Shown here piece by piece: positions 6,970 through 25,494 of a DNA stretch of 64,000 nucleotides. Origin of the DNA: Alphaproteobacteria bacterium (GTDB lineage: Bacteria > Pseudomonadota > Alphaproteobacteria > SP197); NCBI GenBank assembly GCA_016869675.1, contig VGDP01000011.1, positions 1 through 64,000 of the forward strand, written 5' to 3'. The notes beneath the pieces are model-generated. The model was not told where the DNA came from. It did no database searches and was given only the letters and a program-made list of their open reading frames with translations. How positions within the stretch are numbered: the stretch's first letter is position 1; each line of letters opens with the position of its first letter. Made by a program: the position numbers and the translations under genes.

Positions 6970-6983
6970 CGGGTCGGCTGACG

Positions 6984-8164
6984 GTCTTGCGGCCGCTGGA
7001 GGGCCGGGCGGGCTGGCGCGGCGCGGACTTGGTGCGCGACGAGTCGTGGATCATGCCGTGGTCGGCGGCGGACCTGGCCGATCTGGACGCGGCGCTCGAC
7101 CACGCGCGGACGCGCGGCATTGCGTGGCGCGACGTGACGCCCGCGACGTTCCCGCTCGGCCCGACCAAGGCCAAGCTCGAGCGGGTGGCGGAGGGGTTGG
7201 AGGACGGGCGCGGCGCGGTCAAGCTGACCGGCCTGCCGGTCGCGCGCTACGACGAAGATGCCTTGCGGCTGGTGTGGATGGGGCTGGCCCTCCACCTGGG
7301 CGTCGCGCGATTCCAGGATTGCCGCGGCCAGCTTATGCGCGATATCCGCGACGAGGGCGCCGGGGTCGGTGCTCGCCACGGCCAGATCACCGATCCGAAG
7401 GACGGCCAGGCGTTCATTTCGTCGAGCGCGCGCACGTACTCCAACGGCGCGCTGCGCTGGCACACGGACCGCACCGACGTGGTCGGGCTGCTGACCGCGT
7501 CCCAGGCCCGGTCCGGCGGCATCAGCAAGCGAGCATGGGTTTTTGCGAAGTTAATTAGCAATTAGAATTATTCCAGATTAGAAACACGTACTAGTTTGCA
7601 TTCTTACTAATTGATAATTTGGTTTGCAATGGCATGAAATTTGGCTAGACGATCGCCAGTTCGGTGACCGTGCACAAAGTCATGCTGGAGCGCCGGCCCG
7701 ACCTGGCCGCCTTGCTCTACCAGCCGATCTGGCGCTCGCGGCTCGGCGAGGAGCGGAGCGGCGAGACGATGATCTATCCCCTGCCGGTGTTCGGCGTGCG
7801 CGATGGTTGTTTCACCAGCCACTACTCGCGCACCTACGTGGAGGCGGCGCAGATGCTGCCGGACGCGGCGCGCATGGCGGACGCGCAATGGGAGGCGCTT
7901 GACCTGCTGGCGGCCCTGTGCGACGAACTGGGCTAAGACATGCGCCTGGCCCAGGGCGACACCCAGTTCATCAACAGCCACGTGACCTACCACGCCCGCA
8001 CGCCGTTCGCGGATGATCCGGCCTCGGGACAGGTGCGCCGGCTGCTGCGGGTCTGGCTGTGCCTGCCCGAGCGGCATCGGCCGTTGCCCGAGGATCAGGC
8101 CATGCTGTGGCGCGCCGTCGAGGCGGGCCAGTTGCGCGGCGGCATCGCCCAGGCCGATGGCTGA
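6984..8164 (+). pseudogene. TauD/TfdA-type 2-oxoglutarate dioxygenase-like gene split by AT-rich insertion and a TAA
   Basis: The first part reads LRPLEGRAGWRGADLV ... SSSARTYSNGALRWHTDRTDVVGLLTASQARSGGISK, with the HTD iron-ligand motif of gamma-butyrobetaine/TauD-like dioxygenases. At 7530 it enters ~122 bp of AT-rich DNA with stops, then resumes at 7655 with ASSVTVHKVMLERRPDLAALL in a different frame. A TAA at 7934-7936 interrupts it again before DMRLAQGDTQFINSHVTYHARTPF, which carries the distal His region. The joint GGISK-(L)-ASSV is what the uninterrupted family sequence would be. Start is uncertain: TTG at 6984 was chosen by homology start and lies soon after the pccB stop. Function lost; original substrate unknown. 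Confidence 0.75.
7530..7654. mobile_element. ~122-bp AT-rich MITE-like insertion in the TauD-like gene
   Basis: By hand count about one third G+C, against roughly 70% in flanking coding DNA. Excising about 122 bp restores the reading frame and the family sequence exactly. Both ends read inward share an imperfect order of words: CATG, TTGC, AATTA, CAATTAG (left at about 7534-7567; right as complement at about 7608-7634). This suggests a degenerate inverted-repeat, hairpin-forming element. No transposase and no clear target duplication are visible. It could instead be a foreign DNA patch of unknown origin. Confidence 0.5.
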
Positions 8165-16557: not shown

Positions 16558-17512
16558 CTATTGGGGCGCGGGCAGCAGGACGCCTTCAAGGACGTCCACA
16601 ATCGTGCGCTTGGAGTCGTCGATCAGGTAGACCTCGTCGTCCACCAGCAGAAGCTCGGCGTCCTGCCACAGCGACCCCAGCGCGGCCAGCCGGTCGGCCG
16701 GCAAGAGTTCGCCCAACCCCTGGGGCAGTTCGTCGTCCTCGCTTTCGGGTCCGCCATAGAGCACGCGGGCGCTGGCCGGCAGGCCATCGAAGGCGCGCTC
16801 GCAGCTCGACGGCTTGGGCTGCCGGCCGGGCTGCGTGTCGGGCAGCCAGACCCGGCACTTGCCGGGTGGCGGCATGAACTCCGGGGGGATGCCTTCGATG
16901 TAGCCGCTGCCGCGCCGGCGCAGAGCCTGCTGGCGCAGCTTCGCGGCTCCCTTGCCGAGCGATTCGTCTTAGGTTGGATTGCCGCTCTCCTCGACGGTCG
17001 CCTCGGAGTGCCGCTTGCTCTGCACCGTCAGGCGCTTGACCTCCTGTTTGGTCGCCTCGCGCGCCGTGGCGTAGTAGCCGCGGATCACGTTCTCCTGGAC
17101 GGCCTCGAACAGCCGGCGCGCCGCGTCGCCGTAGACCAGCCGCGCGCCGGCGGGCACGTCGAGCGCCACGCTGGCGCAATCGGTGGGTGGCGGCTGGTGG
17201 CCGGGCGGCGTGTCGGGCAGCCAGACGCGGCATAGGCCCGGCGGCGGCAAGTGGCCCGGCTGGATGCCCTGGACCCAGCCCTTCTTCTTACCCTTGCCCT
17301 TGGCCTTCGACTTGCCCTGGGCGGTCTGCCCGGCGTCGTCCCCGTCTGGCGACGCGCGCTGGGCCTCGTAGTACTCGCGGATGAGACGCTTCTTGATCTC
17401 GTCGAAGATCGCCTCGACGACCGCATCGCCGCCCTGGGCGACGTCCGTTTTCTGGGGCTAGGGTAGCGACCGGAGCGAGAGCAAGGAGGGCGATGGTTAG
17501 GATCCTCAACAC
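16558..17512 (-). pseudogene. Secreted protein with duplicated PPPGxCRVWLPDTxPGxQP...C motif; frameshift and TAA
   Basis: GTG 17512 begins a signal peptide (VLRILTIALLALAPVATLA). Near 17440-17458 the coding frame changes, and GDAVVEAIFDEIKKRLIREYYE continues, followed by a Lys/Gly-rich stretch and the first motif copy (PPPGLCRVWLPDTPPGHQP, then PTDC). A helical segment (RRLFEAVQENVIRGYYATAREATKQEVKRL) ends at TAA 16969-16971. The same frame resumes with DESLGKGAAKLRQQA and a second motif copy (PPPGKCRVWLPDTQPGRQP, then SSC). I do not recognise a characterised family. The repeated Cys-Trp-Cys units suggest a small disulfide-linked periplasmic module. Confidence 0.65.
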
Positions 17513-24680: not shown

Positions 24681-25494
24681 CGCGCATATGCTCGCGCGCC
24701 ACGAAGGCGCCGATCCAATGGGCGCGGGCCCGGCTTTCCAGGCCTTCCATGAACATGTCCTCGTGGTCGGGGTCGTGGTGGAAAATCGCCAGGCTCTTGG
24801 CGTTGGCGGCCTGGCACAAGCGGACGCCTTCCTCCCACGTGGAGTGACCCCAGCCGATCTTCATGGGGAATTCCCGATCGGTGTAGGTCGAATCGTAGAT
24901 CACCAGATCGGCGCCCTCGATCAGGGCCAGGATATGCTGGTTTGGACGTCCGACCTCATGTTCGGTGTCCGTGATATAGCACATTGATTTACCATTATAT
25001 TCAATACGATATCCTGTCGCATTGTCAGGATGGTTTAGTGGACATGTGCGTACCTTCACGGCGTCGCCCTCGCCCAAATGGAAGGTATCGCCGGCGTCGA
25101 AATCGGCGTACGTCATCTTGGCCTTCATGGCGTCCAACGGCACCGGGAAGTAGGGGTTGTTCATCTGGCCGGCGAACACGTCCTTGATCTGGCCGCCCTT
25201 GAGGTGCCCCGCCATGAGGTGGAACGAGCGTTCCGGCCGGAAGGCCGGCGAAAAGAAGGGGAAACCGTTGATGTGATCCCAGTGGGTGTGGGACAGCAGG
25301 ATGGTGGCGTGCATGACGTTCTTGCGCAACAGCCAGTGACCCAGGTTGCGGATCCCGGTGCCCGCATCCAGAATGATGCGGTCGCCGCCGCAGGCGACCT
25401 CGATGCAACTTGTGTTGCCGCCGAAGGCGATGTGGTTCGGTGACGGGCACGCGATGCTCCCCCGTACGCCCCAGAACTTGAGCTTGAACGTCAT
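24667..25494 (-). CDS. MBL-fold metallo-hydrolase
   Basis: 275 aa from ATG 25494. N-terminal KLKFWGVRGSIACPSP...FGGNTSCIEV and the metal site LLSHTHWDHINGFPFF (HxHxDH) are followed by NHPDNATGYRIEYNGKSMCYITDTEH and DLVIYDSTYTD, which supply further His/Asp ligands. It resembles the PhnP/phosphodiesterase-like branch, often found near cyclic-nucleotide signalling genes. A Crp-type palindrome lies about 106 bp upstream, and the Crp-family gene is next on the same strand. Substrate unknown; a cyclic or nucleotide phosphodiester is a reasonable guess from context only. Confidence 0.85.
   Translation of the reverse strand: MTFKLKFWGVRGSIACPSPNHIAFGGNTSCIEVACGGDRIILDAGTGIRNLGHWLLRKNVMHATILLSHTHWDHINGFPFFSPAFRPERSFHLMAGHLKGGQIKDVFAGQMNNPYFPVPLDAMKAKMTYADFDAGDTFHLGEGDAVKVRTCPLNHPDNATGYRIEYNGKSMCYITDTEHEVGRPNQHILALIEGADLVIYDSTYTDREFPMKIGWGHSTWEEGVRLCQAANAKSLAIFHHDPDHEDMFMEGLESRARAHWIGAFVAREHMRVNLS

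Follow-up and report, generated by a model that had tools for sequence, protein, structure and literature searches.

How a short AT-rich segment comes to lie within a coding sequence of a high-G+C genome, and whether it behaves as a mobile element, are the questions raised by a locus in the window studied here (the window is the whole stretch of DNA that was analysed, 64,000 nucleotides long). The features needed to address them are the following.

6978 to 7530, + strand: 5' half of a pseudogene, from tblastn alignment to nine relatives' loci (L003-L011); the 5' boundary is provisional
7531 to 7652, no strand assigned: AT-rich insertion of 122 bp, from composition and the gapless alignment of nine relatives that do not carry it; boundaries ± about 2 bases
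7543 to 7629, + strand: imperfect palindrome of 87 bp, centred near 7586, with 43-nt arms and no indels
7653 to 8164, + strand: 3' half of the pseudogene, from tblastn to the same loci, with a weak Pfam TauD match in its last part
7934 to 7936, + strand: second lesion, an in-frame TAA in place of the Tyr or Phe codon of the nine relatives

An AT-rich insertion in a dioxygenase pseudogene

The interrupted gene is of the TauD/TfdA dioxygenase type, lies on the + strand (about 6978-8164) and has 92% G+C at third codon positions; the Pfam TauD match (PF02668) in its 3' half has an E value of 1.6e-4, below the curated cut-off. The insert has a G+C content of 33.6%, compared with a window mean of 69%, which bears out the AT-rich island within a high-G+C coding sequence described in an earlier note on this DNA. 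The 120-bp minimum of the 64-kb window falls at 7534-7653 (32.5%), and the runner-up has 43%. That runner-up patch (24927-25064, 46% G+C) lies within a metallo-beta-lactamase-like coding sequence whose frame is intact, and is a possible codon-usage anomaly.

Reading through the gene with the insert removed yields SGGISK-L-ASSVTVHKVM. The product can be aligned gaplessly across the site with the nine relatives' loci, to which it is 50-55% identical over some 350 residues (tblastn, E from 1e-92 to 1e-119). In one relative (G001), DNA matches stop at query position 524 and start again at 688, the intervening stretch being shorter by 122 bases. The site is thus uninterrupted in all nine relatives compared, and this gapless alignment indicates a pure insertion of 122 bp into a gene of ancestral length, with no target codon or base lost; it confirms the earlier proposal that excision of about 122 bp restores GGISK-L-ASSV. 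The range first given, 7530-7654, had the right site and was one or two bases too wide on each side, the insertion point being ambiguous by 1-2 bases; the insertion is placed after 7530 because this yields Leu, matching several relatives. No word of at least 4 bp is common to the two junctions as a target-site duplication, and the repeats of 1-3 bp are of the size expected by chance. The trinucleotide CGA is present at both ends of the insert (7530-7532 and 7650-7652), and was rejected as a target duplication since the ancestral gene would then have been out of register by two bases, a shift that the relatives do not show.

The splitting of a dioxygenase gene is therefore upheld, and to it is added the in-frame TAA at 7934-7936, absent from the earlier note, which makes the gene a pseudogene. 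Apart from the insert, the frame is kept over about 355 codons with this single stop, and the two lesions in an otherwise alignable sequence suggest a pseudogene of fairly recent date. The adjacent genes on either side retain extended open reading frames of 510 and 717 codons, so a general sequence error or poor sequence quality is an unlikely cause. The insert itself, whose length is not divisible by 3, has stop codons in all three forward frames.

The palindrome and its folding

Inward-reading inverted words had been described as forming an imperfect hairpin, and they do so around one centre near 7586. In the ungapped pairing of the arms, 28 of the 43 positions are Watson-Crick pairs, 4 are G-U (on the + strand) and 11 are mismatches, none of them A-C. 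The palindrome is subterminal, set 12 bp inside the left junction and 23 bp inside the right. Compared with its own reverse complement, the 122-bp insert reaches a best score of 26, against 12.6 +/- 2.9 for dinucleotide shuffles, of which 1 in 1000 reaches 26; under stricter mismatch penalties, 211 of 1000 shuffles equal its self-complementarity, which is then not unusual. The two scoring schemes differ because the symmetry is long and imperfect, as opposed to short and exact. A covariance model made from the insert matched its own opposite strand (E 3e-4).

As + strand RNA, the core (which was picked after inspection) folds at -20.9 kcal/mol, compared with -11.4 +/- 2.7 for shuffles, none of 500 reaching it; the DNA fold with flanks (z -0.89) and the RNA fold of the whole insert (z -1.30 for the + strand, -0.14 for the - strand) are not significant. 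The hairpin is thus a matter of sequence symmetry more than of a very stable fold.

Decay of the element at its present site is unlikely. About one third of the arm positions are mismatched (11 of 43 unpaired, or 15 if G-U is not counted), while the host gene can be aligned over its full length with a single stop; had the arms once been identical and decayed where they now stand, much heavier damage to that gene would be expected. The imperfections therefore probably predate the insertion.

Searches for other copies

A search for further copies in the genome and its relatives had been suggested, and none was found. No second copy was detected in the same genome, nor any copy in 15 further genomes from its family (the whole sample of the order), by blastn or by the covariance model. 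Across 385 genomes of the class, blastn returned no credible copy; four weak matches of 27-31 bp, all in AT-rich genomes, were taken as chance and rejected as copies. The plasmids, phages and E. coli genomes searched had no match to the insert, and exact and degenerate patterns gave only chance matches in viral and genome contigs. The matches of the covariance model, built from the insert alone, consist of the insert, its opposite strand and one weak match (L043, E 0.11). No Rfam match to the insert was obtained up to E = 1, no promoters or terminators were found in it, and blastn of the 122 bp revealed no insertion sequence in the same genome with closely matching ends. The earlier note had counted the absence of other copies, combined with an assembly join, against its own proposal; the absence of copies is what was found.

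Other AT-rich stretches in the genome

The description of the composition as unlike anything else holds for the window, whereas the genome contains other AT-rich islands, which were checked by a pattern search and in a 400-kb sample; those examined are mostly intergenic. One lies in serS (contig C22 of G000, about 16818-17140; L050 2319-2641), as a 315-bp in-frame AT-rich insertion with a core of about 31% G+C, flanked by 8-bp direct repeats GACCAAGA (L050 2319 and 2634). None of the 38 relatives with a SerS match carries it, blastn detects no resemblance between it and the 122-bp insert, and neither Pfam nor PHROG gives a significant match for its product. A single-copy stretch of about 400 bp with 30% G+C (L047 2003-2425, at the end of contig C62 of G000) seems to comprise the terminal part of a foreign gene together with non-coding DNA. 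A region with nearly no G or C (L076 14941-20000, contig C2 of G000) most likely represents masked sequence (N) in the stored genome. The search for a Ku gene in this genome found none.

Origin of the insertion

The best single account, which is put forward tentatively, is that of a solitary, orphan MITE-like insertion, palindromic and AT-rich, of foreign or mobile origin. It is favoured by the clean insertion relative to nine relatives and by a palindrome beyond chance; by the length of 122 bp, the A+T richness and the stem-loop, which fit published prokaryotic MITEs (PMC10969869; PMC2229807); and by the forward-frame stops, the second stop in the host gene and the long open frames of the neighbours. 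It is weakened by the lack of a second copy in the genome and 15 family genomes and of a target-site duplication, by the non-terminal position of the palindrome, by the failure to identify a parent insertion sequence and by the non-significant flanked fold. According to this proposal, a short palindromic AT-rich element would have entered the TauD-like dioxygenase gene with no loss of target bases, presumably by transposition in trans; a target duplication may never have been present or may since have been lost, and the imperfections of the arms would be older than the event. The insertion would have broken a dispensable gene, which would also have acquired a nonsense mutation. At present the insert is probably of no use to the cell: each of the three forward frames contains a stop that ends translation, and a hairpin would form in its transcript. 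It is quite improbable that it represents a new small palindromic mobile element, one that would be rarely sampled, would insert exactly and without target duplication in high-G+C genomes and would keep a + strand RNA hairpin by means of G-U pairs.

Ranking close behind the MITE-like account, and a possible explanation in its own right, is the capture by end joining, at a double-strand break, of a random AT-rich fragment, of phage origin or from a different organism, the palindrome having come along with it. The single copy and the lack of both target duplication and terminal repeats agree with capture, as does the presence in this genome's serS of another AT-rich insertion, single-copy and unrelated. 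However, a source sequence was not found in genomes of the family or class, phages, plasmids, E. coli or viral contigs, the classical bacterial end-joining route is missing with the Ku gene, the loss of zero target bases is unusual for end joining, and capture leaves the palindrome unexplained. An assembly or binning artefact, by which a short contaminant sequence was joined into the contig, is unlikely and only a minor possibility: the assembly is in 97 pieces and the segment has no match and an abrupt change of composition, but a false join rarely gives re-entry into the gene exact to the base, and the independent in-gene stop is what is expected of a real pseudogene. Least probable of all, to the point of being very hard to credit, is that the insert is a small intron or a translational bypass, removed or skipped in expression so that the gene still works. 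The exact restoration of the frame would suit it, and the hairpin pairs better on the coding strand (4 G-U, no A-C mismatches); against it are the second in-frame TAA downstream, which makes a spliced or bypassed insert unlikely, the lack of an Rfam match and hence of any known intron family, and junctions where inspection by eye revealed no matching take-off and landing codons.

The insert is most likely an orphan miniature mobile element or a captured foreign fragment in a dead gene, and as a find it is modest, not startling. It provides a well-bounded, short foreign AT-rich insertion in a genome of 69% G+C, with a clear empty site in relatives. Taken alone the insert changes little; together with the serS insertion it raises the question of the route by which AT-rich pieces enter a genome where no Ku gene was detected.

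Comparison with known elements

Several families of short palindromic sequences resemble the insert to different degrees. ERIC/IRU elements measure about 127 bp. They are like the insert in size and in being imperfect palindromes; the insert, however, has no match in the collection of E. coli genomes, a species that carries ERIC. Among known structured RNAs and self-splicing introns, no Rfam model matched the insert. Rickettsia palindromic elements (RPE), of 105-146 bp, are found inside genes and read in frame (PMC2229807). The insert shares with them the size range, the palindrome and the location within a protein gene. RPE within genes occur in multiple copies and are translated as part of the reading frame, whereas the insert is solitary, and its 122 bp, not a multiple of 3, contain stops in every coding-strand frame.

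Prokaryotic MITEs are short and AT-rich; their inverted repeats are terminal and about 4-30 bp long, their transcripts form stem-loops, and direct repeats flank the younger copies (PMC10969869). The MITE reading of the earlier note stands as regards the insertion, the gene interruption, the AT-richness and the imperfect inverted repeat; it does not as regards copies, target duplication and terminal repeats. The insert differs from MITEs in that it is single in its genome, with none in the family, has only chance repeats of 1-3 bp in place of a target-site duplication (a trait often lost with age), and carries a real palindrome that lies 12 and 23 bp inside the junctions, and in that no parent insertion sequence was found for it. 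It nevertheless resembles a MITE insertion, a short palindrome that breaks a gene: at 122 bp it is well within the size of up to about 500 bp, and, like QMITE2 and MITEAba12, it is short, AT-rich, non-coding, palindromic and inserted in a gene.
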